From contig JANQPL010000014.1 in NCBI GenBank assembly GCA_028289425.1, positions 1-64,000 on the forward strand: 64,000 nt of DNA, written 5' to 3'. The stretch comes from Alphaproteobacteria bacterium (lineage in GTDB: Bacteria; Pseudomonadota; Alphaproteobacteria; JANQMY01). Below the pieces are notes generated by a model. It ran no database searches. It was not told where the DNA came from and was given only the letters and a program-made list of their open reading frames with translations. This document shows positions 29,476 through 62,886 of this stretch, piece by piece (the stretch's first letter is position 1; the number at the start of each line of letters is the position of its first letter). The position numbers were made by a program, and so were the translations under genes.

Positions 29476-29522
29476 TGGCGTCCCCGGCAGGATTCGAACC
29501 TGCGACCCTCAGATTAGGAATC
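29476..29522 (-). pseudogene. tRNA-Arg(CCU) 3' fragment (attachment-site remnant)
   Basis: On the minus strand this is the anticodon loop TTCCTAA with anticodon CCU, a CAGA/TCTG stem, variable loop, the T arm GGTTCGAATCC, the acceptor half CGGGGAC, discriminator G and CCA. The D arm and 5' acceptor half are missing: sequence upstream (above 29525) is unrelated. It is therefore the 3' half of a tRNA gene. Its acceptor strand pairs with GTCCCCG of the 5' fragment at 31434, not with that of the complete tRNA at 43300. Confidence 0.8.
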
Positions 29523-35620: not shown

Positions 35621-38551
35621 TCAAACGCTGAACACCTTCATAACTTCATCCCCATAATGATTTATTACCTTCACGGCGATGCGGCCACTGTCGGGGCGCG
35701 GGAAGGAGCGGGAGGTGTCGCGGTAAAGGGTTTGCCAGGCTTCTTCGTTGATTTCGGCTTTCAGCGCTGTCTTGAGAGATTTGTACGGGTCGCCCGCGCC
35801 CAGGAAATAAGCGTGGCGCACAAAGAAGCTTTCTTCATTGTAATCATCATCAATAAACCAAGCGGCGATGTCCTGCGTGTCGCCATGGCGGATCTCACCG
35901 GTCGCCGGCACAAACACATCCATGCCTCGGATGGTGACGGTCAGGTCTTCGCCCTTTTCATTGATGGCAATGTCGGGCTCGCCAATCACCATGAACAAAT
36001 TGGCGTTCTTATCGCGGCGCAGATCTTCCGCCATATGAAGGTCGGGGTTCATCTTCGCCTTGATGATGCGCAAGGGGCCAAGCTTGGTTACGTCGCTGGC
36101 ATGGGCGTCGTATCCAAAAGCGCAGGCGATCAGAATGTCAAAGCGTGCTTCGGTGGCTTCACGCGCCGCGGCCATCAGGTCCGTGCGATGCAGGGTGCCA
36201 TATTCAGGGCCGATCATGATGGCGGCGCGTCGTTCGCTCTCCCCTTCCAGGAAGTGGCCTTCACCGCAAATCATGTCACCTGCCCAGGGCGCGATGTGGT
36301 TAAACGTTATGCGGTCTTCCTTGACCCCTTGCTGCACACCAGCGGTACGCAGGTTTTCGAGGATCACTTGAACGAAATCCACTTCGTCAGCAAGCGCGCT
36401 TCTGCGCTTTTTGGATTGGAGTTCGGGAAGAAAGTCGTCTTCGTCCATGGGCACCACGCGGTGGGGCGACAGGCTTTCGACCGTAAAGGGGCCCGCCACG
36501 CGCACACGCGATTTGTCTTCGTAAGGACGGTCATAAAGGAATTCCACGTCAGCCGCCCGTGCGATGGATTCGTCAATATCTTTTTGCCGCGCAATGCGCT
36601 GTTCCCACCACTGCGCATGGGCGTTTTTTGCATCGCTCGACCAGTCGTCAGCTGCATCTCGGGGGATTTCCCATTCTTCCCATGTTTCGCCGACGGCTTT
36701 GTTGAGCTGTTCGCGCAAAGGCTCAAGTTTTTCTTGATAGGTTTCCCAAATTACATCGATCTCCGCATTGTTGGCGATGGATTTGAGTGTGATGTGCGGT
36801 GCGCGCTCATAAACGAAGCCCTGTCGCACATCCCCAAAGGTTGTGCCTTCAATGGGTGGCTTGCCGGTGATTTCCGATTCTTTTTGTCGTCCGTCAGCTG
36901 AATCTTTGAGGTAATAGTACGGATACTTGGCGGCCATCAGCCGCTGCCGCGCAAGCGCCAATGCGACGCGGCTGGTATCTATGGTAATCCAGCGCCGCCC
37001 CCATTGTTCTGCGACCGTTGCCGTTGTGCCGGAGCCGCAGGTCGGATCAAGCACAAGATCGCCGGGATCAGTGACCATGAGAAGGCAACGCGCCACCAAA
37101 CCTTCATTCGTCTCTACGACGTACTTCTTATCGGTTGCACCTCCGAATTCTGTCCACACATTCGACAAGGCATAAACCTGGAAATCAGAGAACTTGCGTA
37201 GGTACCTTATCGCTGTTTTTTGTGGAATTACGCGCCCGCTAGCGATGAGGCGACGCATTCCTTCTTCACTGGTCTTCCAACGAGTTTGAAGTGTGGGTTG
37301 AAACGTCTTCCCAACGAAATTGACTGTGAACCATGAAGCCGCGCCTTCACCTTTCTGTCGTCCCATGCTGGCAGATTGGAGATCACTGGCTGTTGCGAAG
37401 TCTGAGCCAGCTTGCAAGGAATCAGGCGATCCGAGTTCGGTTTTTGTCGCCGGGCGTAAGATGCCACCTGGTTCAACGACTTGTCTGTAATGAAACCCTC
37501 CCTCTGCTCCTGGAGTCTTTTTTTTGTAAATCGCTCGGTACTTGGCCGCAGATCGGTCTTTTGTATACCAAACCAAATAGTCCGCGACCCCCGATATGAG
37601 ATCGTTTGTAGACGAGGTCGTTTTTGTAACAGTAATTTCGCTGGCAAAGTTTTCTTCTCCAAAAACTTCATCCATCACTGTACGGACGCGATGCACGTTT
37701 TCGTCACCGATTTGTACAAAGATGGACCCGGAATCGGTCAGCAAGTCGCGCATCACGGTGAGGCGGTCGCGCAAATAAGTGAGATAAGAATGGATGCCGT
37801 CTTTCCACGTGTCGCGGAACGCTTTCACTTGTTCTGGCTCTCTGGTGAGACTATCGAGCTTTCCGTCCTTTACATCGCGCGAACGGGTTGAGACCTGCCA
37901 ATTGGAGTTGAATTTGATGCCATAAGGTGGGTCGAAATAGATTGCTTGCACTTTCCCGCGCAGTTTTTCCCGTTCCGCCAAGGATGCCATGACCTGTAAG
38001 GAATCGCCCAAAATCATGCGGTTCGACCAGTTCTGGTCGTGTTCGTAAAACTCGGTTTTGGCTTCCGCATCAATGCCGTTAAAATCGGAGAATAAGTCCG
38101 GCGCGTCTTGCTCGTCCTTACGCTTTGAGCGCTTCACCAAATCATCGATCAACGCTTTGGGATGGATCTTCTCTTGCACGTAAATCGGCGGGACATTGAC
38201 GACGAGGTCCGACCAGTCCTGATTGTCTTTGCCGCGCCAGGTGAGCTGCGCATCACCAATTTCGATGGAGCCCGTCTCTGCCAGTTGGGCACGCTGTTCT
38301 TCCGTCAGCGTTATTTTGATGCCGTTCCAAACAATCTGTGGGTCCAGATCTTGTTCCCGTTCCCGCACCTCACCCTCTGCCAAGGGCCGCGCGCGGGAAT
38401 AGGCCACCGGTTTTTGTGGCGTGATTTCCTCTAACCGCTCATTGATCGCCTGAAGCTCCGCCGTTGGAATATTCCGCCGCTTTGCTTCTTCATGGGTGAG
38501 CGTTTCGACTTGCTTTTTCTTTTTGGTAGTTCGGGGCGTTCTTTTGGCCAT
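35621..38551 (-). CDS. Type III-like DNA methyltransferase (Mod)
   Basis: 976 residues. The catalytic motif DPPY (FDPPYGIKFNSNW) is near residue 209 and the AdoMet motif DPTCGSGTTATVAEQWGRRW near 500. This order (DPPY before the AdoMet site) is the class-beta arrangement of type III Mod and N6-adenine methyltransferases. The N-terminal 170 residues are a charged, helical extension (KRTPRTTKKKKQVETLTHEEA) and about 570-976 is a long C-terminal region of unknown fold. It lies downstream of res and an orphan gene, the reverse of the usual mod-res order. GGAAG precedes the ATG. Confidence 0.88.
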   Translation of the reverse strand: MAKRTPRTTKKKKQVETLTHEEAKRRNIPTAELQAINERLEEITPQKPVAYSRARPLAEGEVREREQDLDPQIVWNGIKITLTEEQRAQLAETGSIEIGDAQLTWRGKDNQDWSDLVVNVPPIYVQEKIHPKALIDDLVKRSKRKDEQDAPDLFSDFNGIDAEAKTEFYEHDQNWSNRMILGDSLQVMASLAEREKLRGKVQAIYFDPPYGIKFNSNWQVSTRSRDVKDGKLDSLTREPEQVKAFRDTWKDGIHSYLTYLRDRLTVMRDLLTDSGSIFVQIGDENVHRVRTVMDEVFGEENFASEITVTKTTSSTNDLISGVADYLVWYTKDRSAAKYRAIYKKKTPGAEGGFHYRQVVEPGGILRPATKTELGSPDSLQAGSDFATASDLQSASMGRQKGEGAASWFTVNFVGKTFQPTLQTRWKTSEEGMRRLIASGRVIPQKTAIRYLRKFSDFQVYALSNVWTEFGGATDKKYVVETNEGLVARCLLMVTDPGDLVLDPTCGSGTTATVAEQWGRRWITIDTSRVALALARQRLMAAKYPYYYLKDSADGRQKESEITGKPPIEGTTFGDVRQGFVYERAPHITLKSIANNAEIDVIWETYQEKLEPLREQLNKAVGETWEEWEIPRDAADDWSSDAKNAHAQWWEQRIARQKDIDESIARAADVEFLYDRPYEDKSRVRVAGPFTVESLSPHRVVPMDEDDFLPELQSKKRRSALADEVDFVQVILENLRTAGVQQGVKEDRITFNHIAPWAGDMICGEGHFLEGESERRAAIMIGPEYGTLHRTDLMAAAREATEARFDILIACAFGYDAHASDVTKLGPLRIIKAKMNPDLHMAEDLRRDKNANLFMVIGEPDIAINEKGEDLTVTIRGMDVFVPATGEIRHGDTQDIAAWFIDDDYNEESFFVRHAYFLGAGDPYKSLKTALKAEINEEAWQTLYRDTSRSFPRPDSGRIAVKVINHYGDEVMKVFSV

Positions 38552-38573
38552 ATTACTTCCGATAATACCTCGC

Positions 38574-39278
38574 CTACGAATGTAGAAACTCTAGAAATAC
38601 CTTTTGGTGACTATCAACAATGTTTTGTGCAGAAGACATAAGCCCTCTATCGGCGCTTTCTTCGAGCCAGGTAAGATTGTCTTTGATGGCTTTTCTTTGA
38701 TTTGCATCCGTTAAGCCAAGTATCCACAACGCCTTGTCGATAACTCTAGTGCCGTAGAGACCATGCGGTTGCATTTCTTGATTAAGCAAGTGAGATAGCT
38801 CGTCAAAACCACGCTGATCTAGCGAGCAATAATAGGCCTGGGCTCGAACAGTTGGTCCACCGCTACAAATCCCAAGGGCATCTGCAGCTTGACTGTCAAA
38901 CCGTGTCCAATCAGTCGGAGATAGAAACCAGGCTAGTTTCGAAACGAGAGAAACCGGGCGGCCGGTTGCCCCTTTTTCGAAAATCTCTTCGGCGGCGCGG
39001 TTGCAAATGTTTGCTTTGAAAGATAGGTCGCCTTCGCTCCACCTGTCGTCAACCAGCTCGTTGACGGTCGTTGCGACAAAAGATCGAAGGCTTTTAACTT
39101 CCTTCGGCAATTGACGCGCAACTTTGTATTCCGCCGCTGCCTCTGCAACCAGGTCAGCCGTAAAGCCGCCTTTTGAAACCTCTAGAAGAAACCTTTTGTC
39201 ACTTCTATTTCGCGGGTTTTCATTGAAGGTTTTCGCGTGTTCTGCGACGGCTGCAAGAACTAGATTTCTTGAATTCAC
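38574..39278 (-). CDS. Hypothetical protein between res and mod
   Basis: 234 residues, mostly helical, no family recognised. Segments: AAVAEHAKTFNENPRNRSDKRFL, KLAWFLSPTDWTRFDSQAADALG and ALWILGLTDANQRKAIKDNLTWLE. The FLSPTDWTRFD segment resembles motifs in orphan proteins of restriction and abortive-infection loci. Start is GTG 39278, three bases after the res stop, with GAAGGCGAAG upstream, so translation is coupled. Conserved position inside a Res-Mod operon suggests a subunit or regulator of the complex. Confidence 0.65.
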   Translation of the reverse strand: MNSRNLVLAAVAEHAKTFNENPRNRSDKRFLLEVSKGGFTADLVAEAAAEYKVARQLPKEVKSLRSFVATTVNELVDDRWSEGDLSFKANICNRAAEEIFEKGATGRPVSLVSKLAWFLSPTDWTRFDSQAADALGICSGGPTVRAQAYYCSLDQRGFDELSHLLNQEMQPHGLYGTRVIDKALWILGLTDANQRKAIKDNLTWLEESADRGLMSSAQNIVDSHQKVFLEFLHS

Positions 39279-39281
39279 TTG

Positions 39282-42200
39282 TTACTTCGCCTTCATCTCT
39301 AGATTCTTCACCAGCTCGGCAAACTCTTTTTCCATGCCGAACACTTCTGTGAACTCCTCAAAAGCCCAACGTCCGAAACGGTGGAGATTGTTAACACCAG
39401 GGACCCAAAGCTCGTTCATCGTTTGTGCTTTGAGTTTTGCGTCTTCATCGCGATAGCCCTTAACTTCGAGGATTAGGTTGAGCGGCTCTATTTCTCCTCG
39501 GCCATCATCCAGGCGCACAATAAAATCTGGCACATAGCGGCGCGTGACCGGTCCGTTTCTGTAAGGCACGTCGAAACCAAGACCTTGGTTCTTAACGTAA
39601 GACAAGACCTTTGGGTGTTCTTCGCAGATGCGCGCGAGTTCTGCTTCCCAGGTTGAATCTTCAACCACGTGGCTCACATGGCAACGCTTGGCGTCGGTAA
39701 CAAAGCATGGCTTTGAGGTGGTGAAGTTAACGAAGCGCGTATCCCCTTCTGGATTGAAAGTATCGATAACAGCCGTAACTCTGTTTTCTCCATCAACGGT
39801 TTTCTGGCATGCAAGGAAAATGCGTTCGCATGCTTTATCAATGACACCGGGCCACGTTACCATCGCAGGAAAAGTACCAGCTGCTTCGCAGACCAGGTAT
39901 TCTTGATCAAGCCATTGAGTGACCACGCGCTTCACCTGTGGAAAGAGAGACATGTTCATGCCGCCCTCATCTTGATACTTGGTTGCCAACAGATGTTTGG
40001 TCAGACGAAAAGCAATGGAATTGGGGCGAGCATATTCATCAAGCGGCGCCTCAGGCGACATGATTTGTTGCTCGCCAACTACACCGGACATGTACGTTTT
40101 AGTAGCGCCGATTTCAGATGGATTTAACCGAAACTTCGAGTCTTCTGTGAACTGAGCGGTTATTTGTTCATCTGGCAATGCGGTACGATACCCTTCTACG
40201 CGAGGAAACCGAATGGCGAGGTGAGCACGTTCTCGCCGAGCCTGAACGCGCGTAACAGGTTTGGGGGCGGTTGGAGGGGCAACGGTGGCCTTCGCCGTGA
40301 AGTCAAAGGGGATGCCCATAATGTCAGCATACTCCACATCGAAAAGGCCATCCTGATTGAGCTCATAACTTTTGCGTCGCAACCCACGCCCGACCACTTG
40401 TTCGCACAAGAGCTGGGTGCCGAACGCTCGCACCCCTAGAATGTGAGTGACGGTGTTGGCATCCCACCCTTCCGTCAGCATAGAAACAGAGACAACACAC
40501 CGAATTGATTCACCTAAGCGACCTTTTTCACCGACCGTATTCATGACCTCGCGCAACAGGTCTTCATCGGTGATCTTGACCTCGCCGGGTGCGCCCTCGC
40601 GTTGGATCTTTTCCTGCCGAAACTGTTCAATTTCTGGGGCTAGTGCAGCGCGAAACGCAGGATCGAGCCCCTCTCCCGTGTCTATCTGGGCTGAGTCAAT
40701 GAGGAGTGTGTTTGGTTTTTCGAGCCGTTGATTGAATTCATCATAATTGTTGAACAGCTTTAATTGACCGGGAACCACCTTAGCGGGCTCTTTTTCTGTT
40801 TCTGGCGTTTCATAACCGGCAATCCAGTCATGCACGATTTGTGATGTGGTGGTGTTGTTGCACACCACGATAAAGACCGGTGGCACTTCGTGCCCCATGG
40901 CGCGCCATTGTTCATCGGTTTTTTCGTAGTGGGCATAAAGAGAGCGCAACGCTGTGATGAGGGGCGTGACTTCGGCCAATGCTTCCGGATTGCCGCCGCC
41001 GCTTTTGGCGCGTCCTTTCTTGGGAAGCTTCTTCCCAATGTGATCCCAAAGGTTTCGGTAAATAGGTTTGCCATCAAGCGTGGGCATATTGTCGAGAATG
41101 GGCACGCGCGGCAGTTTGACGATGCCGCATTCGATCGCATCCATCAACGAAAAGTCTGTGATTGTCCATGGGAACAAGGTCCCCTCGCGATAGCCAGATC
41201 CGCGTAAGAAAAAGGGGGTGGCTGACAAGTCGTAAATCGCGCGCACGCCGATTTTTCGTTTTGCTGTTTCAATGCCGCTGATCCATAGGCGGGCTGCTTC
41301 GTTATTCTCTTTCGCCTCCTTTTTGTCATCTCCCTTCGATTCTTTGACATCATCCGTACCCGGTTTTTCACGGTAGCAATGGTGCGCCTCATCATTGATG
41401 ACGACAATGTTTTTCATGGTGAAAAGGTCGCCGATTGAACGGCGCAACATTTCGCCCTCGGTTTCTAAGGTATTGACCTTTTCCTGTCGGCGACCTTCTA
41501 TAGCGGCCCGTGTTCCCTTTGAGAGTTTTGTTGTCTCACGTCTTTGAAATGCGTGGTAATTGGTGACCACCACTTTGGCTGCTGTGATGTCGTGCATCAA
41601 ATCGGATGGCACCAGTTCGCGTTTCTCGTAGTAGCTGTCTGGGTCCGAAGGATCGAGCACGCGCAATCGATCACGAATGGTGATACCCGGCGCGATGATC
41701 AGAAACCCTTTTGAATAGGATTTGGAAGAGGGGGCGCGGACTGCATTGATGGTCTGCCACGCAATTAACATGGCCATCACGGTCGTTTTGCCCGCACCAG
41801 TGGCCATTTTCATGGCAAGGCGAAAAAGAGCGGGGTTGGATTCAACATTTCCGCCTTCGAGATGGTCCCAGATTCGCTTGTATTGACGCTGCCCACGGGC
41901 GACTTCCGTGAGCCAAATAATCGTTTCCGCTGCCTCTCGTTGGCAAAAGAAGGGCTTAATGGAAGCAAACTTGTGGCTGCGCCAATGGTCGAGCAGCCGG
42001 CGGGTTGCCGGCGTGACGCCCCAGTCGCCCGAATTCGGCAATTCGCGCCAACTTTTTACGTGTTGCCGAATTTCATTGATGATAGGCGTTGGGTTGTATT
42101 GCTGATCCGCCTCATCAAGCATATCCCGCTGGGCATCATTCTTTCGCGTACGCTTGGCTTTTGGAACTGGCGTGTAAAGGTCCGATCTGCGACGTTCCTC

Positions 42201-42311
42201 GCGCGGCTGCTCTTCCGTCGGTTGCCCGTTTTCATCTAGCACATGATGGCGCGTTGGCTCGTCATAGGGCGAATTCAGAATGGGGTGCTTGAAGAAGTCT
42301 ATCTTTGTCAT
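39282..42311 (-). CDS. Type III-like restriction helicase-nuclease (Res)
   Basis: 1009 residues, superfamily 2 translocase plus nuclease. Walker A KMATGAGKTTVMAMLIAWQ (about 170), DEAH box VINDEAHHCYREK (about 307), LSATPFFLRGSG, and VSMLTEGWDANTVTHILGVRAFGTQLLCEQVVGRGLRR (in parts: VSMLTEGWDA and CEQVVGRGLRR). The C-terminal PD-(D/E)xK nuclease shows PDFIVRLDDG (about 929) and LILEVKGYRDED (about 945). Leads the operon. No clear ribosome-binding site precedes ATG 42311, so its start is less sure. Confidence 0.88.
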   Translation of the reverse strand: MTKIDFFKHPILNSPYDEPTRHHVLDENGQPTEEQPREERRRSDLYTPVPKAKRTRKNDAQRDMLDEADQQYNPTPIINEIRQHVKSWRELPNSGDWGVTPATRRLLDHWRSHKFASIKPFFCQREAAETIIWLTEVARGQRQYKRIWDHLEGGNVESNPALFRLAMKMATGAGKTTVMAMLIAWQTINAVRAPSSKSYSKGFLIIAPGITIRDRLRVLDPSDPDSYYEKRELVPSDLMHDITAAKVVVTNYHAFQRRETTKLSKGTRAAIEGRRQEKVNTLETEGEMLRRSIGDLFTMKNIVVINDEAHHCYREKPGTDDVKESKGDDKKEAKENNEAARLWISGIETAKRKIGVRAIYDLSATPFFLRGSGYREGTLFPWTITDFSLMDAIECGIVKLPRVPILDNMPTLDGKPIYRNLWDHIGKKLPKKGRAKSGGGNPEALAEVTPLITALRSLYAHYEKTDEQWRAMGHEVPPVFIVVCNNTTTSQIVHDWIAGYETPETEKEPAKVVPGQLKLFNNYDEFNQRLEKPNTLLIDSAQIDTGEGLDPAFRAALAPEIEQFRQEKIQREGAPGEVKITDEDLLREVMNTVGEKGRLGESIRCVVSVSMLTEGWDANTVTHILGVRAFGTQLLCEQVVGRGLRRKSYELNQDGLFDVEYADIMGIPFDFTAKATVAPPTAPKPVTRVQARRERAHLAIRFPRVEGYRTALPDEQITAQFTEDSKFRLNPSEIGATKTYMSGVVGEQQIMSPEAPLDEYARPNSIAFRLTKHLLATKYQDEGGMNMSLFPQVKRVVTQWLDQEYLVCEAAGTFPAMVTWPGVIDKACERIFLACQKTVDGENRVTAVIDTFNPEGDTRFVNFTTSKPCFVTDAKRCHVSHVVEDSTWEAELARICEEHPKVLSYVKNQGLGFDVPYRNGPVTRRYVPDFIVRLDDGRGEIEPLNLILEVKGYRDEDAKLKAQTMNELWVPGVNNLHRFGRWAFEEFTEVFGMEKEFAELVKNLEMKAK

Positions 42312-43223: not shown

Positions 43224-43300
<77 letters not shown>

Positions 43301-50930: not shown

Positions 50931-53900
50931 TCAGAACTGCCATTGCAGTGTGCCGGCAACTGTTTGCTCGGTAAGGCGTTCCGCGAGTTCGGCGTCATAG
51001 TTGACGAAGAGCTTTGCTCGGTCCGCAAGCATCACGCTAATACCACCACCCACAGTCGCGGTGGTGCGTGGGGCTTTGGTTCCCTGCACCGTAAATGAAC
51101 CTCCGGCCAAAGCCGCATTGATCACCCGTTCAGTTTCATCGAACTCGTGGTTTAGGAATGTCCGAAATTCGGGAGTAAGCCTCAGACCTGTATCCAGCTC
51201 AACTTCCTGCCGAAGTCGTGCACCTACCGATCCTGAAATCGAATTCGTTTCTCGATCAGACACCGTGAGGTTTGCGGCACCAGCACCAGTTTCTGTGTAA
51301 CCGTCGGCCTGGAAATTGGTATACCGCACGGATATAGCCGGCTCGACGATCAGTTCCCCGATGGCATTAAAGGCGTAACCACCTTCTACATACCCCGTGA
51401 TTTCATCCGCATCGAAATTGCTTAGCGCCGTTGACGAAAGCAAGGTGATGACGCGCTGACCGTCAAAATCCGTAAATGCATAGGACAGAGCGCCAGCAAC
51501 ATATCCGTCACCGATATTTGCTCCGCCAAAGGCGGATAGGCGGAACGTGTCACCTTCGACCTCGGTGAGCCGAGCGTCTACGTCCGCTTTGGATTTCGAA
51601 TAGCCAATGGACAGACCAGCCAGAATGCCGCTGTCAAAGGCGTAGTCGACGCCAGCGGTAGTGCCGAATAGTCGATAGTCAGTATCCGCTGTATTCGCAT
51701 TACCGGATTCAAGGTCGCCGAATGTGCCAAATCCCTCTATCCACGCTGAAAAACCGCTGTCGTGCGAGAACGTTTTGGACAATCCCGAAACAGAGGCCAA
51801 AATGGGTGCGTCAGTCATGGTGGTGGCAAAAACACCATCATTGGTGATCTGTGACAATCCGGACGAGATCTGACTGAAGGCAGCGCTTGCGACCTTGGTG
51901 TTCTGAGTGCCGCGAGCCACTCTGTTGCCGAGTAGAATGCCGAATCGATTGCTGAGAATATCGAGAACACTTTCCACATCGGAAATGGAAATGTCTGCTA
52001 AGTTGCCAAGGCCGTCGCCAGATAGACTGTCCAAGGCACCCAGTAGTTCTTCACTCGATAAGGCCGATATCTCATTGATCAGATTTTGAGCTTCGGGGGA
52101 CAGATTCGGATCGTTTAAAAGTTGATCAATCACGTCGCCTATTTGCCGTTGATTTTCTGTCTCAGCGACTTGAGTGGCCATTGCCACCTGCGCCAATGTG
52201 AGTACGACGTCATTCCCATCACCGCCATTGGTGACGACACTTGCATCAAACAACGCGAATTCATCCGTAATGGTTCCAAAGCCAGATCCGGAGACTACAT
52301 CGGCGCCATCATTTTCGACGATCGTGAAGGATGTTAAGCCCATGCCCGTGAATCCAGAGGCATCGGGAATGACATTCAATGTGGCGTCACTAATATTGAC
52401 CGTACCTGTCACATCCAGTTTGTCGGCGGCAGTATCTGACACTTCAATTTCAAGTGTCGAACCGGATTGAAGTTTCAAATCTCCTGTAGAAAATGTGCCA
52501 ATGGAGTTTCCGGGCGCAATTTTACCACCGGTTAAAGCGTTGACAGACCCAACAACACTGCCTGTGCCTCCAAGTGTGCCTCCGGCGTTTACATCCACCG
52601 TGGGACTGGTAAGCGTTGCATTTATCGAAAGCACGCCCGAGTTTACTGACGTTGTACCAGCTCCGCCAAGGTTAAAGCTGGAGTTCAAGGCCCAGTCTGT
52701 TCCATCCATGACCAGTGTTTCAAAGTTAATGAGTGCAGCACCCGTCGATCCGCTTTCGATCAACCTGACGGTATCCGTATCGCCACCTCCATCTGCAGTG
52801 TTCCCAATAACACCACCCGATCTCAAACGGAGCTCATCATTTCCTGAACCCAAATCAACCGAACGGAACGAGGCATCTATCCGTCCGCCAACAATTACTG
52901 TCGTGTTGCCAGCGAGGTCTTTTACGCCCGCGCTATTTGCCCCTAAGGCCAGGATATAGGACCCCGAAGCAACGTTGACGACGTTGTTTCCCGTCGACTT
53001 AAAATAGACACCGTGCGCTGTGTTTGAGCCCGTGTTGATCACCGCTGTGTCGTTTACAAACACCTGATTGTTCGTGCCCGCTGGTCCGTCGAAGAATACA
53101 CCGTGGCTGCCATTACTTATGACAGTAGAAGTGCCGTTTAGCGTGACTGTATTGCCCGTAAGGTTGGTTGCCGATTGGAAGGTGATCCCCGCCCTGGGCC
53201 CACCTTCAATCCGTGTATTTCCATTAAGCGTTATACTATTACCGGAAATTGTGCCGGTCGCACTGGCCAGTATTCCTTGATAGGAGGTCGACTTTACGTA
53301 GCCATCAGTCAGATTGATCGTGTTATTGGAGATTGTACCAGCTCCAGCCCTCAGCCGAATTGGTTGATATGCGCTCGTCATGCTACCATTGAAGTATATT
53401 TTGTTGGAATCGACAGTGGACGCATTATTGCCAAAAAGTAAAACCCCATAGGAGGTCGGTCCAGCAGTAAGATTGGTTCCGGTGTTGATCGTCACAGTGT
53501 TTGAGATGACGCTGCCTGCATCTGTTTGAATGCGTACGTTTGATCGGCCGGCTATGGCTGTTCCACCAATCGTAACCTGATTTCCAGAAACGTCGCCACT
53601 AGCCGAAAATATCTCCACATTCTCTTGGGTAATTGATGTGGAGCTTCCATCTAGGAGGACTGTATTCAAAGTTACAGTGTCATTACTCCGCACATATACA
53701 TTTTCTAAATTGTGGTCGAGTAGGCCGCCATTGTACATCAACACTCGGTTCATAGATGCGGCGCCGCTATTACCGTTGATAAACACACCGCGTGTATTAG
53801 CGATACTCCCAAGTGCGTTTTTTACCGAGCGACCACCATCAAAGATAATATCGTTATTGCTTACACCGGCTGAACCACGAAGGAATATTGCCTCTGTTCG

Positions 53901-54512
53901 ACCAACAACCTGGCCCGAATTGAGTACAATTGTGTTGTTGCTAACCAGACCACTTGTATTGTTGATGTCGATGCCACGATTCGCGAATGAGTAGATCAGC
54001 GAACTATCATTCAGGTAAATATGATTATTTTCGATCGCGCCGCCCGACCGGTTAAATTCCGTTGCAGTGGTGTTATCTGCGAAAAGCCGCGACGTCCCAT
54101 TCAACGTAATTGTGATGTTATTTGCTGAAAGAGATTGAACGGCTTGTTCGCCGGATGCGTATGTTTGCACCCTCGCCGCATCAGCCATTGTGATGGTTGC
54201 ACCATCGTCGCCGCTCGTGAATCGAATGGCGGCTGAGTTGATGTTCATGTTCAGAATAGCGCTGTTCTGAAAAACAGTGTTCGTGTTCGCACCGCTCGGT
54301 TCAATTGGGGTGTTAACCGTCGTTCCGGTCTGGCAGGTCACGGTTTGGCCTGCCGCTGGGTTTACACTTGGCACGCAGGCAGCGTTAGCGTTTTGTCCCA
54401 GTGTCAAAGCAAACACCGAAGCGGTGCTAAGAAGTCCAATCCGGCAGACGGAAGAATCCTGTTTATTCTTCTTTCGAAGACGCCACCTTTCGCGGCGCGA
54501 CACACCCCACAT
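50931..54512 (-). CDS. Autotransporter outer membrane beta-barrel protein
   Basis: 1193 residues, type V secreted. An extended signal peptide (basic RRERWRLRKKNK, then GLLSTASVFALTLGQNANA) precedes a long passenger of beta-helix repeats rich in N, T and S (about 45-700; NNTIxLN-type turns). A linker with LLNDPNLSPEAQNLINEISAL follows. A C-terminal autotransporter barrel occupies about the last 270 residues and ends in LQWQF, the terminal aromatic needed for Bam insertion. Likely an adhesin or surface protein. It is flanked by intergenic DNA, so probably monocistronic. Confidence 0.93.
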   Translation of the reverse strand: MWGVSRRERWRLRKKNKQDSSVCRIGLLSTASVFALTLGQNANAACVPSVNPAAGQTVTCQTGTTVNTPIEPSGANTNTVFQNSAILNMNINSAAIRFTSGDDGATITMADAARVQTYASGEQAVQSLSANNITITLNGTSRLFADNTTATEFNRSGGAIENNHIYLNDSSLIYSFANRGIDINNTSGLVSNNTIVLNSGQVVGRTEAIFLRGSAGVSNNDIIFDGGRSVKNALGSIANTRGVFINGNSGAASMNRVLMYNGGLLDHNLENVYVRSNDTVTLNTVLLDGSSTSITQENVEIFSASGDVSGNQVTIGGTAIAGRSNVRIQTDAGSVISNTVTINTGTNLTAGPTSYGVLLFGNNASTVDSNKIYFNGSMTSAYQPIRLRAGAGTISNNTINLTDGYVKSTSYQGILASATGTISGNSITLNGNTRIEGGPRAGITFQSATNLTGNTVTLNGTSTVISNGSHGVFFDGPAGTNNQVFVNDTAVINTGSNTAHGVYFKSTGNNVVNVASGSYILALGANSAGVKDLAGNTTVIVGGRIDASFRSVDLGSGNDELRLRSGGVIGNTADGGGDTDTVRLIESGSTGAALINFETLVMDGTDWALNSSFNLGGAGTTSVNSGVLSINATLTSPTVDVNAGGTLGGTGSVVGSVNALTGGKIAPGNSIGTFSTGDLKLQSGSTLEIEVSDTAADKLDVTGTVNISDATLNVIPDASGFTGMGLTSFTIVENDGADVVSGSGFGTITDEFALFDASVVTNGGDGNDVVLTLAQVAMATQVAETENQRQIGDVIDQLLNDPNLSPEAQNLINEISALSSEELLGALDSLSGDGLGNLADISISDVESVLDILSNRFGILLGNRVARGTQNTKVASAAFSQISSGLSQITNDGVFATTMTDAPILASVSGLSKTFSHDSGFSAWIEGFGTFGDLESGNANTADTDYRLFGTTAGVDYAFDSGILAGLSIGYSKSKADVDARLTEVEGDTFRLSAFGGANIGDGYVAGALSYAFTDFDGQRVITLLSSTALSNFDADEITGYVEGGYAFNAIGELIVEPAISVRYTNFQADGYTETGAGAANLTVSDRETNSISGSVGARLRQEVELDTGLRLTPEFRTFLNHEFDETERVINAALAGGSFTVQGTKAPRTTATVGGGISVMLADRAKLFVNYDAELAERLTEQTVAGTLQWQF

Positions 54513-56421: not shown

Positions 56422-57537
56422 TTGACAGATATCGACCTACATCGCCGGCCCTCAGAGAATGCGAAATTCATAGCTGGGTTGTTGTGTAAAGGGATGCAGC
56501 CCACAAATGATGCCCGCTTCGTTCTGGAGAAACTCTACAACTTTAAACCCGGATTTGTTCACGGTTCTGTCTTCCTACTTGACGGTAGACGCCCGATAAA
56601 TACTGCAGTCTTAGAGCGGTTTGTGCTCAACAATGATGCGCCCGTGCTAGAATACCAAAATGGGCGCTTTCAGGTCTCGTATAATGGAACCAAAAGATCC
56701 TGCGATCCGCTTCCACAGCCAAATTGTCTATCTGATGTGATAGAGGGTTTCGGCCCAGCTTACACTCTCGCGCAGATGCATAGCCCGACAACTCTTTTTC
56801 TGACTCCGCTTCGCGAGTGTATCTTTGCAGTGAAGGGCGAAATCTGTTCTTTCTGCAACTTCGAAGGAAAGAAAATGAATCCTGCCCGGCCAGACTCAGT
56901 GGCAGACGTGGTAAGGAAGGTAACGCTTGAACTCAACGTCAACCTACATATTGCTATCGGTAGTGGCACACCGAATTTGAACGACGGGGGGGCCAAATAT
57001 TTCTCATCGATAGCTCGTGCCATTTCGAACGTCACGCCACTACCTATTTCAATCGAAATGATACCGTTTGCAGAAACAAGGTATCTTTACGATATGAGAG
57101 ATGCCGGCGTGCGCTCAGTGATTTCCAGCATTGAAATTTGGGATGACGTGAGGCGCAAAAAATACTTGCCCGGCAAATCACGAATCAGCAAATCGACCTA
57201 CAATGAGTTTTGGCAAAAGGCTACCAGAGCATTCGGTCGCGGTCAGGTAAGCTCGGTGCTGATTGCTGGTTTGGATACAGTCGATAGCGTTAAGCAGGGA
57301 ATTGATGAACTTATTGAGATCGGTGTAATTCCGACGATAATACCGTTTCGCCCCTATGACGGAGTTGCGCTGGCCGACCATCCAGTATGCCCAATTGAGG
57401 ACTACATCAGCGCTGCAAGTTACAACGCGATTCAGCTTTATCGATCAGAGCTTTCGCCAAAGATGCAAAGTGGTTGTACAAGTTGTCAGGGGTGCTCACT
57501 GGATGACCCAAGCGAAGTGCTCGAATTTGTTCACTGA
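56422..57537 (+). CDS. Radical SAM protein (MSMEG_0568-like family)
   Basis: 371 residues from TTG 56422 (AAGGA upstream). The [4Fe-4S] motif is C133-x8-C142-x2-C145 (CIFAVKGEICSFC), unlike the usual CX3CX2C. A second set, C352-x2-C355-x2-C358 (CTSCQGC), near the C-terminus could hold an auxiliary cluster. Segments GSGTPNLNDGGA, FGRGQVSSVLIAGLD and GVIPTIIPFRPYDG match, as I recall, the MSMEG_0568/TIGR04043 radical SAM family, members of which occur in nitrilase-containing nitrogen-starvation clusters. It converges on the AdoMetDC-like gene (13 bases apart), and its partners are probably the opposite operon. Confidence 0.75.
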   Translation: MTDIDLHRRPSENAKFIAGLLCKGMQPTNDARFVLEKLYNFKPGFVHGSVFLLDGRRPINTAVLERFVLNNDAPVLEYQNGRFQVSYNGTKRSCDPLPQPNCLSDVIEGFGPAYTLAQMHSPTTLFLTPLRECIFAVKGEICSFCNFEGKKMNPARPDSVADVVRKVTLELNVNLHIAIGSGTPNLNDGGAKYFSSIARAISNVTPLPISIEMIPFAETRYLYDMRDAGVRSVISSIEIWDDVRRKKYLPGKSRISKSTYNEFWQKATRAFGRGQVSSVLIAGLDTVDSVKQGIDELIEIGVIPTIIPFRPYDGVALADHPVCPIEDYISAASYNAIQLYRSELSPKMQSGCTSCQGCSLDDPSEVLEFVH

Positions 57538-57549
57538 CCAGGAAGTATT

Positions 57550-57939
57550 TCAATCGGGATTGCTGCAATAATTGGCGTTGTCGGATCTATCTATGATTTT
57601 GTACTTAATGTTTGTGGGTTGAAACACTGACAAACTATTCACCAACTCACCCACTCTGATTGGCGCACAGCTGTATAAATCAAGTTGAAACTCCGTGGGT
57701 ATTACTTCGTCCCAAAAGTGTGCCACTACATGGCTGGTTGTAATTAGCGCCATAACAGTGATTCCCCGGTTCCCCGGCGCTTGAGAATACTTGGCTATCG
57801 GCTCGGCAAGGAGGCTCATGTTTTGACTCTCTACGACACCAATCATCCAAGTTCTTGCGGTGGCGGTTTTCATTGGCGGCGAGAAACACTGACCTTTCAT
57901 AATTAGATGATTGTGAATCAAGCTACTTTGTTTTCGCAT
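57550..57939 (-). CDS. Small S-adenosylmethionine decarboxylase-like protein
   Basis: About 129 residues from ATG 57939 (GGTGAG upstream; a TTG start at 57978 is also possible). HNHLIMKGQC at the N-terminus, GNRGITVMALITTSHVVAHFWDE in the middle (the SH of the pyruvoyl-forming site, ESHISIHTWPE type in SpeH) and EFQLDLYSCAPI at the end (VDVFTCG type) match small AdoMetDC-fold proteins. The autocleavage residue pair reads T-S instead of E-S. A real AdoMetDC yields decarboxylated AdoMet, the aminopropyl donor for spermidine. Last gene of the operon. Confidence 0.7.
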   Translation of the reverse strand: MRKQSSLIHNHLIMKGQCFSPPMKTATARTWMIGVVESQNMSLLAEPIAKYSQAPGNRGITVMALITTSHVVAHFWDEVIPTEFQLDLYSCAPIRVGELVNSLSVFQPTNIKYKIIDRSDNANYCSNPD

Positions 57940-58013
57940 TGAAGCAATCTCACCATTCGCCTGCGTACAACTCGTCAACTTAGATGCAGAGCCCTATTCC
58001 TATTGGCCTGCTG

Positions 58014-58715
58014 TTAAGGAGATTCAAAAAAGTTGGCGCACCACTTTGAGAACAAATCTGCGTCGAGTTGCTCCGTATCATCAGTTCGAAGCGTCGCGTC
58101 TATTGCAGGGTCGTGTTCAAGCAATTTTTCCAAGTACAGAAGGTCGATTTCGGGATGCATTTGTGTCGAGAGAATCTGGCTTCCCTTGACCACCAATGCA
58201 TTTCTAGCGCCCCTGCAGTCTGCGAGGCACTCAAGGTCTTCTGGCAACTCGACGACTTCCTCATTATGCAATGCCGTCAAGTTGAGATTTTTCCTCGGTT
58301 GCATATATTCTTTGTACTGTTTTATGATTAACTTTCGGGAGCCTATGTTCCATCCACTTTCTGCTTTCGCTACAACTCCCCCTAGTGCCTTACATATAAC
58401 TTGGTGACCAAAACAGATCCCTAGCATCTTGACTGAATTCTGATCGCAGTAGTTCACTATACTACAAAGGTCTTGCACACTGGCGGTGTTCGAGTTCACT
58501 GAACGGGGACTTCCGGTAATTATAATTCCTCGATAGTCAGGCAAACTTTTTGGTCGCTCCCCTGAGGAGACGTCAAAAAGATCGAGTCTTTCCGAAAATT
58601 TCGTGTCTCCAAAGAAATCCCTAAAGCGATCAAAGTCTTGAGGGAACTGAGGACCCAGCCCCTCTATGTGCTCATTAAAAGATTGGAGCACTGCAATTCT
58701 TTCATGACTTCTCAC
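58014..58715 (-). CDS. Class I glutamine amidotransferase-like hydrolase
   Basis: 233 residues, GATase1 fold. The catalytic triad is complete: C101 in GICFGHQV, H187 and E189 in TQMHPEIDL. It opens with HERIAVLQSF and TGSPRSVNSN. There is no synthetase domain. In gamma-glutamyl amine pathways (Puu) a class I amidotransferase-fold protein (PuuD) hydrolyses the gamma-glutamyl bond, and this protein sits 22 bases after a glutamine-synthetase-like ligase. Start is GTG 58715, without a strong RBS. Confidence 0.82.
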   Translation of the reverse strand: MRSHERIAVLQSFNEHIEGLGPQFPQDFDRFRDFFGDTKFSERLDLFDVSSGERPKSLPDYRGIIITGSPRSVNSNTASVQDLCSIVNYCDQNSVKMLGICFGHQVICKALGGVVAKAESGWNIGSRKLIIKQYKEYMQPRKNLNLTALHNEEVVELPEDLECLADCRGARNALVVKGSQILSTQMHPEIDLLYLEKLLEHDPAIDATLRTDDTEQLDADLFSKWCANFFESP

Positions 58716-58737
58716 ACCACAGGACCCTAGTTCTTAT

Positions 58738-59829
58738 TCACAACAACTGCGCTAACCCACGTTTAGTTATTAGTGACCAATTAAGGGCGGAAAGGTCGGC
58801 TTCGTTGTATCTTTTGCAAGCTTCTTCAAACGTGTTGGACAGTTTTATGGTTCCCGACATTTTGTTGGCACCCTTGTAAAACGTAATTCCATGAACTCCA
58901 CTTGCGATCAAACTGGTCAGTATACTGTATACGTTGGCGGTGTTGTCGGGTATTCTAAACTCGAACCTTTGGTCTCGTTTCACATGTCTAATTGCTGCGT
59001 TTCGTGTCTCATCGGATACACCGGCGGCTAATTCGAGCCACGTATTTTTCATTCCCTCATCATGAAGCCGATCGTAAGAGCCAACTGACGGACAATAGAT
59101 AAGTTGGCAACGGTTGCACCAACTTATTACTCCGTTGGCAAATTTTTTTGAGCACTCTGGGTTTGATGCGTTGGGTAACCAATTCTCTGACACGCTGAAA
59201 TTCACATGTAGCCCGCTGCCGAATTGACCAACACTCGGTTTTGGTGAAAAATCAATCTTCAGCTGGTGCTTCCGCGCAATCACTGACAATATAGCTTTAG
59301 AGATAACAAGATTTGCAGCTGCAGAATAGGGGTCAGTCGCGGTAAAGCTAACTTCAAATTGGTGAACACCTCCCTCTGCGTGAAATGTCTCGACACCCAA
59401 TTGCAGCTCTTCGGCGTTTGCCAGAAAATCTGAGATGGTCTCACTGACTTCAAATTGACGATCTAACTTGTATGCATGAACTCCGGGGGGATCTCGGTCT
59501 TTTTTCCCTGAACTCGGAAACAAATAAAACTCAAGCTCAAGGCCTATTCGTACATCAATGCCGAGCAAATCAAGTTTCCCAATCTGGTCTAACAAGGCGG
59601 ACTTGGGACAGAATGGCGTTTCGGACACACAAGAGACCAATTCCGTATTGGGAAATAATGATGTGGACCTTTTGTGTAGTCCATCGGAACGAATGCGAAA
59701 GTCTCGGTCTTTTTCAGACAGCCCCAAGCGATCTACGGAAGATGGTGTGAGGTAAACTTCATCTGTCGACTTAGACGTTAATTTGCCGATTGCATCGCCA
59801 GATCCATTGACAGCCCAAAATAGTCTCAT
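58738..59829 (-). CDS. Glutamine-synthetase-like gamma-glutamyl ligase
   Basis: 363 residues. GS catalytic-domain motifs are present: GLELEFYLF (98-100, Glu ligands), EGGVHQFEVSF (152, 159), GSGLHVNFS (His), and FEFRIPDNTANVYSILTSLIASGVHGI. The N-terminal beta-grasp domain is shorter and diverged. True GS is about 450 residues or more. It is nearer to the PuuA/GlnA3-like amine ligases, which glutamylate amines with ATP. Directly follows SDR, followed by the GATase: an ATP-dependent gamma-glutamylation and its reversal. Confidence 0.8.
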   Translation of the reverse strand: MRLFWAVNGSGDAIGKLTSKSTDEVYLTPSSVDRLGLSEKDRDFRIRSDGLHKRSTSLFPNTELVSCVSETPFCPKSALLDQIGKLDLLGIDVRIGLELEFYLFPSSGKKDRDPPGVHAYKLDRQFEVSETISDFLANAEELQLGVETFHAEGGVHQFEVSFTATDPYSAAANLVISKAILSVIARKHQLKIDFSPKPSVGQFGSGLHVNFSVSENWLPNASNPECSKKFANGVISWCNRCQLIYCPSVGSYDRLHDEGMKNTWLELAAGVSDETRNAAIRHVKRDQRFEFRIPDNTANVYSILTSLIASGVHGITFYKGANKMSGTIKLSNTFEEACKRYNEADLSALNWSLITKRGLAQLL

Positions 59830-59830
59830 G

Positions 59831-60559
59831 CTAACAATATGTAACTTTGTACACTTGTTTTAGCGGAAGTACATTTAATTTGTGCACGAATAAACTTTTG
59901 TACGAGGACAAAGAAAAACATAAATCGGCGAGTTCGCTAGTTGCAATCAATGCGCCGTCTGACTCGGATACAACGCGTTCTGGATCGGCGTCGTATTGGT
60001 GGGAATGGCTCGATACGTCAGCCGGGCTTACGATTACGACCCGGCAATGTCCAAGGTTGTCTTTTTGGAGGGCGACCGCAAATCCCTCGATAGCCTTTTT
60101 TGCTGCAATAAAACTCGCGAGTCCGGGGTTCTCGGGAAACCCCCAATCAGCAGATACTTGGTAAACTAAAGGCGAGATGCTGCTATTACGCAAAACTATT
60201 TTGGTAAGATTTATCGCTCCGAGGACTCCAGCTTCAAAGAGATTTGCTGTCTCTTCAATTTCAGTATCAACAGCAGCCCCCTCAACATAACCGAATGCAC
60301 CGCTCCAAAGCACGTCAATCAGTCCGTTTGCCTTCACAAACTTCTCAATATTGCGATTGACAAGATCGAAGTCTCTAATATCCACATCTATGGTTGTTGA
60401 TGTACCACCGAGCTTGGTAATATCCGATGCGGTTTGTTCGAGGCCATCTCGGTTTCTCGCCAAAAGTCCCACGTGATAGCCTTCGCTTCCAAATCTCACT
60501 GCTATAGCGCGACCAATTCCGTAACTGGCGCCAGAAACAACAATATTCTTCGCACTCAT
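59831..60559 (-). CDS. SDR-family protein with Phe in place of the catalytic Tyr
   Basis: 242 residues from ATG 60559, with AGGAAGG upstream (a longer start would overlap the FAD gene). Rossmann nucleotide site SGASYGIG (9-16). The catalytic Ser136 (VSADWG) is present, as is Lys154, but the Tyr of YxxxK is Phe150 (ASFIAAKKAIEGF), and the NNAG motif reads WSGAFG. This should weaken or abolish standard SDR redox chemistry. It may have a changed reaction or a structural role. In the same operon as the oxidase and ligase. Confidence 0.82.
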   Translation of the reverse strand: MSAKNIVVSGASYGIGRAIAVRFGSEGYHVGLLARNRDGLEQTASDITKLGGTSTTIDVDIRDFDLVNRNIEKFVKANGLIDVLWSGAFGYVEGAAVDTEIEETANLFEAGVLGAINLTKIVLRNSSISPLVYQVSADWGFPENPGLASFIAAKKAIEGFAVALQKDNLGHCRVVIVSPADVSSHSHQYDADPERVVSESDGALIATSELADLCFSLSSYKSLFVHKLNVLPLKQVYKVTYC

Positions 60560-60609
60560 TTTATGCCTTCCTTTTTGATTGAGCAGCCGTGAGATTCTAC
60601 CAATTGACA

Positions 60610-62082
60610 TTAAGCCGTCGCTATATTTTCAAGAATAGCTTGGGCACCGAGATAGCCAGCGACTCCAGACACTAACCCACCACCATTTGCACTCGGTCCA
60701 CAGTTCGTTAGGTTCGGAACACTCTCTATGCTTGCCAGGGCATTTCGCCTGTCTAATATGCAAGAATTCAAGAAGCGCCCATGATCTACATTACCTCTTG
60801 AAAGCAGGAAGTGAGATTCAAGGTCAACCGGATCCATAAGGCGAGCTTCTTGTACGACATTGTCATTTGACAAATCAGCCAATATCGAGTCGGTAACTTG
60901 TTTGCCGCATGCCCTTCTTCTTTCATCCGACATTGCGGCCAATATCGAATAGCAACTGTACATTACATAAATAGAGTGAAGGTACGTATCGCAGTCTTTG
61001 CCATGAAAAGCCTGCTCACAAAAGACCTCGAAATACGGGTTCCGTGAATGCCCGTGTTCGAGAGCCGAAAGATAGGAACTATGCATTTCTTCAATTGTGA
61101 GGGGACGAACAATCATGGTGTCGCTCAACGCATCTCCCTTGGCGCCCTTAAACTGGAGCGGTTCCGTCGCAACAACAAGCAACTTAGAACAACCGCCGTC
61201 CTGCATGTGTGAACTCCAGTCCCGATAGGGACTACTCTCTTGTTCCATGAGATTTTCAATTCCAAGAAGACGGAGTAAGATCGGTAAACTTACCGTCGTA
61301 GCAAAATAGTCCGCGTTAACTTCCCGTCCATCCTTCAAACGAGCCGCGACGATTTTGTCACCGATTCGTTGAAGGCCAACGACTTCCGCGTTCGGTGTTA
61401 GTACGCACCCTCTCCCGATTGCGATTTTTGCAAGTGCGGAAGTAACTGCGCCCATCCCCTTTCTTGGCGATGACCAAGATCCAAAGTAATCGTTGGCACA
61501 TGCAAGATACAGGACTGCTACCGCTGACCCCGGTTCATATGGGCTGTGAAAGGACAAAACCTTTCCAGCCAATGCCATCGCTTTCGATGCCTCATTGTCA
61601 CCAAAATAAAACTCGAGCAGCTCAGAGATGGACCCGTCCAAAAATAACAAGCCACTCCTTAGTTTTAGCGCTCTAACATCAGTTCTTAACTTCTCGATTG
61701 TCGTCGTAGAATCTAAGAGGTGCCTCCGAAACACTGACGCGGCTTTCCGAAGATCTCCCATGTAAGTCGGCCAAGAATCGAAAGTTTCAATTGGCGCACC
61801 TGTCATCCCAGGTAAACGCCGTATAAACTCGCATTCTCGAGCTGCCGATTTGAGGTCAAGCTTGTCCAATTCTATGCCAGTCGCAGAAATCACTTCTTCG
61901 AAAAGCATAAAAAGGTGATTAGCGCCCCAATTGAATGAGAAGCCAAGCTCATTGTCTGGAGCTGCGGCTCCGCCAAATCTTTCCTTGCTTTCCAATACAA
62001 CCACTCGATGACCCGCGGTCTGAAGGATAATGGCTGCAACCAACCCATTGTGTCCCCCACCTATAATTGCGATTTCGGCCAT
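60610..62082 (-). CDS. FAD-dependent oxidoreductase (CrtI/PYROXD2-like)
   Basis: 490 residues. N-terminal FAD-binding GxGxxG as IIGGGHNGLVAAIILQTAG, the second motif VVLESKERFGGAAA, and the C-terminal flavin-contacting segment NCGPSANGGGLVSGVAGYLGA. The sequence class is that of phytoene-desaturase-like flavin amine/carotenoid oxidoreductases. Substrate unknown. With the GS-like ligase and hydrolase it could play the role of PuuB, oxidising a gamma-glutamyl amine. Its stop lies 51 bases before the SDR start. Confidence 0.85.
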   Translation of the reverse strand: MAEIAIIGGGHNGLVAAIILQTAGHRVVVLESKERFGGAAAPDNELGFSFNWGANHLFMLFEEVISATGIELDKLDLKSAARECEFIRRLPGMTGAPIETFDSWPTYMGDLRKAASVFRRHLLDSTTTIEKLRTDVRALKLRSGLLFLDGSISELLEFYFGDNEASKAMALAGKVLSFHSPYEPGSAVAVLYLACANDYFGSWSSPRKGMGAVTSALAKIAIGRGCVLTPNAEVVGLQRIGDKIVAARLKDGREVNADYFATTVSLPILLRLLGIENLMEQESSPYRDWSSHMQDGGCSKLLVVATEPLQFKGAKGDALSDTMIVRPLTIEEMHSSYLSALEHGHSRNPYFEVFCEQAFHGKDCDTYLHSIYVMYSCYSILAAMSDERRRACGKQVTDSILADLSNDNVVQEARLMDPVDLESHFLLSRGNVDHGRFLNSCILDRRNALASIESVPNLTNCGPSANGGGLVSGVAGYLGAQAILENIATA

Positions 62083-62886
62083 TCATTTAGCCGCATCTGA
62101 TGAGTGATGATCCACAACGGTGTCCAGGTCGATCGGTGTTCCGATTGCCTTTACCGTCGATACCAATCGATATGAATAATCCACGCCAAGCTTTACAAAG
62201 TAGTCTAATTCATTCAGGTCATTTGGTACATTCATGTAACCGGTCGCCGAACTCTCTTCGCGACCGAATGGATCGAACACACAAGTGTCGTGAGTGGAGA
62301 GAAGCTGAAAAAGGTGCCGCTCAGAAATCTCTATTGCGTGCACTCTGTCTGGATGTGAAACCATGTTTCGTATTGATTTAATCTTTTCTCGCGATAGGTG
62401 GTCCTCTGGAATGACATAGTAGTAATGAACCCCCCGTGAGGTATTCGCTTCTATAACTGGAGCAAAGAGGTTCTTGTCTAATTCTCCACCCAGGTAGGAC
62501 GACACGATCCAAACCTCTTCCTTCGGCATCTGAAGCTCGCGTGTAACCAAGTCTTTGGTTGTGATGACCCAGTCAGGATCTTGAAACACTTGGAACACGT
62601 CCATCCTATTCTCAAAGGTGGAGAAACTAAGTTGCATCGAAGAAACGGCTTCCCGAACCGCGTTCACTGTGGCTGCTTGTTGCCGCGCGACTGACCGATC
62701 AATTGACGGTTTGATAAAAGCCAGTCCAGCGACAAACGAAAGCCCGACAAAAATTGAAACGATCAAAAAAGATATCCCCAAGTGAATTGGGCTTAGGAGG
62801 CTGGTTAGAAAGCCAATTGCGAATCCGCCGCCAACTGCCAACAACGAAAGCACAAGAATCACAATTCCCGGATCAAGCTTTCTCAT
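62083..62886 (-). CDS. Hypothetical membrane-anchored protein, first gene of the operon
   Basis: 267 residues from ATG 62886 (a TTG at 62922 is possible). Two membrane helices near the N-terminus (GIVILVLSLLAVGGGFAIGFL and ISFLIVSIFVGLSFVAGLAFI), then a cytoplasmic helical/linker region and a domain with EVWIVSSYLGGELDKNLFAPVIEA, GVHYYYVIPEDHLS and TCVFDPFG. That last domain has a phospholipase-D-like look but I cannot identify HxK motifs. A role as sensor or anchor is inference. The stop codon abuts the FAD gene start. Confidence 0.62.
   Translation of the reverse strand: MRKLDPGIVILVLSLLAVGGGFAIGFLTSLLSPIHLGISFLIVSIFVGLSFVAGLAFIKPSIDRSVARQQAATVNAVREAVSSMQLSFSTFENRMDVFQVFQDPDWVITTKDLVTRELQMPKEEVWIVSSYLGGELDKNLFAPVIEANTSRGVHYYYVIPEDHLSREKIKSIRNMVSHPDRVHAIEISERHLFQLLSTHDTCVFDPFGREESSATGYMNVPNDLNELDYFVKLGVDYSYRLVSTVKAIGTPIDLDTVVDHHSSDAAK

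Follow-up and report, generated by a model that had tools for sequence, protein, structure and literature searches.

The window analyzed here, 64,000 nucleotides from an alphaproteobacterium (contig JANQPL010000014.1 of assembly GCA_028289425.1, positions 1 to 64,000), contains at 56422-62886 a run of six minus-strand genes that encode, in this order, a membrane protein, a FAD-dependent oxidoreductase (flavoenzyme), a short-chain dehydrogenase/reductase (SDR)-fold protein, a glutamine synthetase (GS)-like ligase, a class I glutamine amidotransferase (GATase) and a small homologue of SpeD, the S-adenosylmethionine (AdoMet) decarboxylase (AdoMetDC). The SpeD homologue was found to group with decarboxylases of phages and is very probably not an AdoMetDC. 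The six genes may constitute a short route in which an amine is produced in place and then modified while it carries a glutamate tag, a reading that we place slightly below an even chance. The evidence points to a product that is an amine outside the spermidine-type chemistry implied by the annotation.

Seven intact open reading frames (ORFs) were called within 56422-62886. All lay at the positions where a sequence-only reading of the window had placed the six minus-strand genes and a convergent radical SAM gene (56422..57537, plus strand), and this part of the reading was borne out. The curated Pfam cut-off was passed by all six enzyme assignments, the membrane protein being excepted. The junctions along the six-gene run are 0, -1, 1, 22, and 35-71 nt, and because they are this tight the gene spacing supports a single transcript, while consensus scans for promoters and terminators gave sites no more numerous than in shuffled sequence (at or below chance). 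The stop codons of the radical SAM gene and the SpeD-like gene are 12 nt apart.

The SpeD-like protein (57550..57942, minus strand; 130 aa, with an alternative TTG start at 57978) matched Pfam AdoMet_dc with 35.5 bits and a PHROGs phage family with a higher score of 44.6 bits. When compared to phage genomes by tblastn it matched just 12 records, 11 pelagiphages and one marine fosmid phage. The nearest relative was found in pelagiphage HTVC109P (40.7% identity, 5e-25), while that of HTVC201P was 32.5% identical. The HTVC201P homologue did not restore spermidine in an E. coli speD mutant but decarboxylated L-arginine, and related homologues from freshwater phages are L-ornithine decarboxylases (PMC9992855). 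The window protein and the phage proteins have the signature IxTSHxxxHxWDExxPxxxQ(L/V/F)DxYxC in common. The Ser, His and Cys for self-processing and catalysis were retained in the alignment, where S70, H75, and C92 are invariant with the canonical SpeDs (S63, H68, and C83 in T. maritima).

One Pro is completely conserved in bona fide AdoMetDC and not conserved in arginine decarboxylases, according to PMC10407285. We read this as probably the Pro of the WPE motif; most canonical SpeDs have HTWPE where the window protein has HFWDE, a change from Pro to Asp. Caution is called for, since phiYS40, a phage enzyme that has been tested and is bona fide, has HYWID at this position and likewise no Pro. 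Because of phiYS40, it is the grouping of the proteins and not the Pro residue alone that carries the argument. In a maximum-likelihood tree of 40 sequences the window protein and 17 phage proteins were split from 22 canonical SpeDs with a support of 100/100; the position of the window protein inside the phage group is unsure owing to its long branch. Two canonical SpeDs are encoded elsewhere in the genome; one carries a fused SpeE-like domain, and the gene of the other adjoins speE (named by eye). The copy in the operon is therefore not needed for spermidine, and supply of spermidine by the operon was rejected.

The sequence-only reading had the AdoMetDC-like enzyme supply or consume an aminopropyl unit. 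As a family label AdoMetDC-like is correct, and the score to AdoMet_dc would also fit a true AdoMetDC that supplies decarboxylated AdoMet for aminopropyl transfer. We consider this highly improbable, since the protein groups with phage decarboxylases, of which the tested members are without AdoMetDC activity, reads WDE for WPE and is found in an operon without an aminopropyltransferase in a genome that has canonical SpeDs elsewhere; the aminopropyl role does not survive. The protein is instead probably a pyruvoyl-dependent decarboxylase of the arginine/ornithine type, judged from its relatives, and its placement, together with the canonical SpeDs, implies that what the operon produces is probably an amine of its own and not an aminopropyl donor. 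The Pfam label AdoMet_dc can thus mislead on chemistry.

The phage enzymes termed SpeDA and SpeDC from pelagiphages and freshwater phages (PMC9992855; PMC10407285) resemble the window protein in signature, in processing and catalytic residues, in the loss of the AdoMetDC Pro and in tree placement. They differ in genomic context: the phage copies fetched were mostly located beside genes for DNA polymerase, exonuclease or ribonucleotide reductase, whereas the window copy is chromosomal and in an operon with a ligase and a hydrolase. A profile search found at least 496 viral stretches that encode a SpeD homologue. One other chromosomal phage-type SpeD, alone at its locus, was found in overlapping sets of 347 genomes of the class and 224 of the phylum. 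The stand-alone phage-type homologue on a bacterial contig (L192 9042-9410, G452:C29) is 39% identical to that of the window and has no pathway genes nearby. For HTVC109P the match (L072 2501-2863) extends upstream of the annotated start at 2597, which is probably too late.

The GS-like ligase (58738..59829, minus strand; 363 aa, Pfam Gln-synt_C 131.9 bits) was aligned with PuuA, GlnA, and GlnT. The roles of the GlnA residues, including those of the ammonia site and the flap, are the ones generally known for GS. The metal, ATP, and glutamate residues were retained (E98, E100, E152, E159, H208, R254, R276, R281, R288, E290, and R292). The loop of GlnA Asp50 is deleted and the C-terminal region is missing; the flap around Glu327 is replaced, and this flap is altered in PuuA too. 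As the ammonia-site features are gone while the ATP, glutamate, and metal residues stay, the protein fits a ligase for a substrate other than ammonia. Its identity to PuuA is 25% in an alignment of 279 columns, and it scored 85 bits against the PuuA equivalog NF045547, which has a cut-off of 650; other GS families scored equally well.

The class I GATase (58014..58715, minus strand; Pfam GATase 67.8 bits) is a probable gamma-glutamyl hydrolase. Its best solved relative was gamma-glutamyl peptidase 1 of Arabidopsis (GGP1, 7.4e-17), and when aligned with GGP1 it was found to have the catalytic Cys and the His-x-Glu (GICFGHQ and MHPE). Homology to PuuD was rejected, as the PuuD family Pfam Peptidase_C26 gave 20 bits, below its cut-off of 20.5, and GATase was the better match. 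A GATase could also feed glutamine-derived ammonia to the GS-like protein, which would yield an amide and not a gamma-glutamyl amine. GATase domains often partner synthetases, and among the NCBIfam matches of this protein are some of the GMP synthase subunit A-like kind. We nevertheless regard ammonia feeding as very unlikely, because the gamma-glutamyl peptidase to which it is closest among solved structures stands alone and the GS-like protein is without ammonia-site features. Together, the GS-like protein and the GATase fit a scheme of glutamylation, modification and then release.

The flavoenzyme (60610..62082, minus strand; 490 aa, Pfam Amino_oxidase 61.8 bits) belongs to the amine-oxidase/phytoene-desaturase superfamily. 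It had been called CrtI-like, which holds loosely at the level of the superfamily; a phytoene desaturase or other carotenoid enzyme was rejected, with 53.9 bits on crtI_fam TIGR02734 against a cut-off of 238.1. The nearest relatives are NAD(P)/FAD oxidoreductases with 24-26% identity over the full length. In several loci such relatives were found paired or single beside GcvT-like proteins, polyamine transporters or aminotransferases; those of alphaproteobacteria are often paired and with GcvT-like proteins, whereas the window flavoenzyme is single and has no GcvT-like partner. Another contig of the same genome (L066 8092-14213, G000:C7) carries speE and speD together with the genes of two FAD oxidoreductases related to each other and a GcvT-like gene, a candidate amine-metabolism cluster.

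The SDR-fold protein (59831..60610, minus strand; Pfam adh_short 86.6 bits) was aligned with FabG and solved SDRs; prediction from its single sequence gave no usable model (predicted local distance difference test, pLDDT, 35). The membrane protein is encoded by the first gene (62083..62886, minus strand, ATG at 62886; 267 aa) and gave no match in Pfam, NCBIfam, PHROGs, PDB or plasmids. Two N-terminal helices were predicted at 6-29 and 34-82 in a model of low confidence (pLDDT 44).

The sequence-only reading had likened the ligase, flavoenzyme, and GATase to PuuA, PuuB, and PuuD of E. coli. The two systems are alike in having a GS-like ligase, a flavoenzyme and a GATase-fold hydrolase, and the logic of attachment and release was upheld, as the GS residues are intact and the GATase is nearest to a gamma-glutamyl peptidase. 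Homology to PuuB and PuuD beyond the superfamily was not. Just 50 aa of the flavoenzyme could be aligned with PuuB, and these cover the FAD-binding motif only. The window flavoenzyme and hydrolase come from other families than those of the Puu pathway, and a decarboxylase and an SDR-fold protein are added.

This bears on whether the operon encodes Puu-like catabolism, in which glutamylation, oxidation and release would turn putrescine or agmatine into a source of nitrogen or carbon. The identity of the ligase to PuuA and the presence of a flavoenzyme and a hydrolase in the same operon would agree with such a role. It is improbable, however, in view of the family assignments of these two enzymes and because the operon has no aldehyde dehydrogenase (PuuC), aminotransferase (PuuE), transporter (PuuP) or PuuR-like regulator; a decarboxylase that makes an amine would also be odd in a catabolic operon.

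Gene order, protein families, residue conservation and the tree placement of the decarboxylase come directly from the computation. In the biosynthetic pathway that we propose, for which we infer the order of the steps, the substrate, the redox chemistry and the product, the SpeD-like protein would cleave itself at the Ser to form the pyruvoyl group and decarboxylate a basic amino acid (arginine, ornithine or a relative) and not AdoMet. The GS-like ligase would then link the amine, at the cost of ATP, to the gamma-carboxyl group of glutamate, the flavoenzyme would oxidise (dehydrogenate) the tagged amine, possibly assisted by the SDR-fold protein in an unusual or non-redox role, and the class I GATase would take off the glutamate and free the product. 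The decarboxylation, ligation, and release steps are suggested by conserved residues and by the nearest characterised relatives. A role in anchoring or export is possible for the membrane protein, and one in some additional modification for the radical SAM protein. The gamma-glutamyl logic around an amine in the sequence-only reading agrees with the intact ATP and glutamate residues of the ligase and with the relatives of the GATase, and its view that the gene combination is an uncharacterised one was also upheld. The side chain of butirosin is made by BtrJ, BtrK, and BtrG through decarboxylation, gamma-glutamyl protection, a flavin step and tag removal. The proposed pathway parallels this logic, but the window enzymes are of other families and a carrier protein is absent. 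If the proposal is true, a gamma-glutamyl-tag pathway here employs a kind of decarboxylase previously described from polyamine synthesis and from phages, and the 130-aa decarboxylase and the ligase are specific and easily assayed entry points to an unknown metabolite.

Several observations weigh against this pathway. Neither a transporter nor a regulator was recognised in the operon. The window decarboxylase is on a long branch of the tree (2.18 changes per site), and a change of substrate along it is possible; among the phage proteins in the tree HTVC201P is the only one for which an assay has been published. Both ends of the GS-like protein are truncated. A Sphingobium relative of the flavoenzyme is found without an amine context. 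The SDR-fold protein has FxxxK for YxxxK, and because the catalytic Tyr is replaced by Phe an ordinary reductase role is doubtful for it. Finally, the functional linkage of the genes comes from a single operon and solely from its structure, because no second copy of the gene set was found.

The searches for a second copy covered genome samples, named plasmids, phages, and one motif-based scan, with metagenomes outside their scope, and no second copy was found in any of these collections. The sequence-only reading had named the joint retention of the AdoMetDC-like, GS-like, GATase, and radical SAM genes in other genomes as support for its proposal; this was looked for and not found. In the sole other genome of the order that was examined, from the same genus, genes for the radical SAM, GS-like, and SpeD-like proteins were absent at the thresholds used. 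None of 80 viral SpeD loci fetched, out of the at least 496, carried other operon genes. Viral scans with the radical SAM protein (a single sequence and three alignments) gave no match, nor did scans with single sequences of the GS-like or SpeD-like protein, whereas the SpeD profile matched hundreds. Among plasmids, none of the operon proteins that were tested had a close relative. A motif scan of ~85,000 species genomes, with patterns set by hand such that orthologues with other motifs would escape, again returned only a radical SAM protein from Magnetococcales. This failure to co-occur in the genomes searched is what a chance assembly of acquired genes in an island, with no shared product, would predict. 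The six genes have five tight same-strand junctions, intact frames, mostly preserved catalytic residues and complementary chemistry, and we regard such an assembly as unlikely.

The radical SAM protein (Pfam Radical_SAM 31.3 bits) is a divergent relative of TIGR04043, the MSMEG_0568 family of Nit1C clusters, as judged by alignment. It is ~30% identical to the Nit1C proteins and has CX8CX2C, FGRGQVS, and a C-terminal GCxxCxxCS in common with them. Its score to TIGR04043 was 146.7 bits, half the cut-off of 303.7, and its N-terminal part is unlike that of Nit1C proteins and common to one Magnetococcales protein. None of the Nit1C partner genes (nitrilase, GNAT, AIR synthase-like) was found among its neighbours. 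It is at most a candidate member of the operon pathway. Orthologue searches in overlapping sets of 142 relatives, 385 genomes of the class and 398 of the phylum gave Nit1C-type proteins, lipoyl synthase-like proteins, radical SAM-transporter fusions and the one distant Magnetococcales protein. The latter (L041 8539-9621) has the N-terminal motif of the window protein but CX3CX2C, and is encoded among genes for a large nucleoside triphosphatase and repeat proteins; its neighbours are not operon genes. In the fusions a radical SAM domain with CX8CX2C is joined to an anion-transporter-like domain (by eye), and they are found in sulfate-assimilation clusters (L042 6915-9602; many genomes of one family, f188). 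MSMEG_0568/Nit1C-type radical SAM genes were also matched on 373 Klebsiella plasmid records.

The operon region is accessory DNA rich in defence genes. Around the operon the G+C content is 0.47 compared to 0.56 over the first 38 kb of the window. An intact tRNA-Arg is located at 43224-43300, and 26-base copies of its end were found at 29482-29507 in direct orientation and, past the window, at contig 69686-69711 in inverted orientation. One copy being inverted, the fragments gave no clean element boundary for the operon. The presence of one direct and one inverted copy suggests that integration at this tRNA took place repeatedly and was accompanied by a rearrangement.

The composition, the tRNA-Arg fragments, a SIR2-APAZ argonaute-type defence gene just past the window and, within the window, a pair of type III restriction-like genes would fit an operon whose product is a small molecule for defence or signalling and which belongs functionally to the defence-rich island around it. 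The PADLOC defence families did not match the operon proteins except for a weak 38-residue hit to the FAD motif, and neighbourhood alone is weak evidence; such a role is quite unlikely. A speculative reading of low probability is that the island recruited a pyruvoyl decarboxylase of the phage type, along with a radical SAM enzyme of a new subfamily, for a new pathway with gamma-glutamyl protection, and thereby makes a novel amine or guanidine metabolite, perhaps directed against phages or competitors.

The type III restriction-modification-like pair, whose members were recognised by eye as a modification and a helicase subunit, is located at 35621-42311, and a site-specific recombinase-like ORF (named by eye) at 31781-32803. 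The SIR2-APAZ argonaute-associated protein beyond the window edge (L030 6285-9137, contig ~69784-72636) scored 1323 bits against the PADLOC Aga_SIR2 model, and the ORF adjoining it (L030 9028-10626) probably encodes a putative short argonaute. The operon is neighboured by a gene for an autotransporter-like protein of 1193 aa at 50931-54512.

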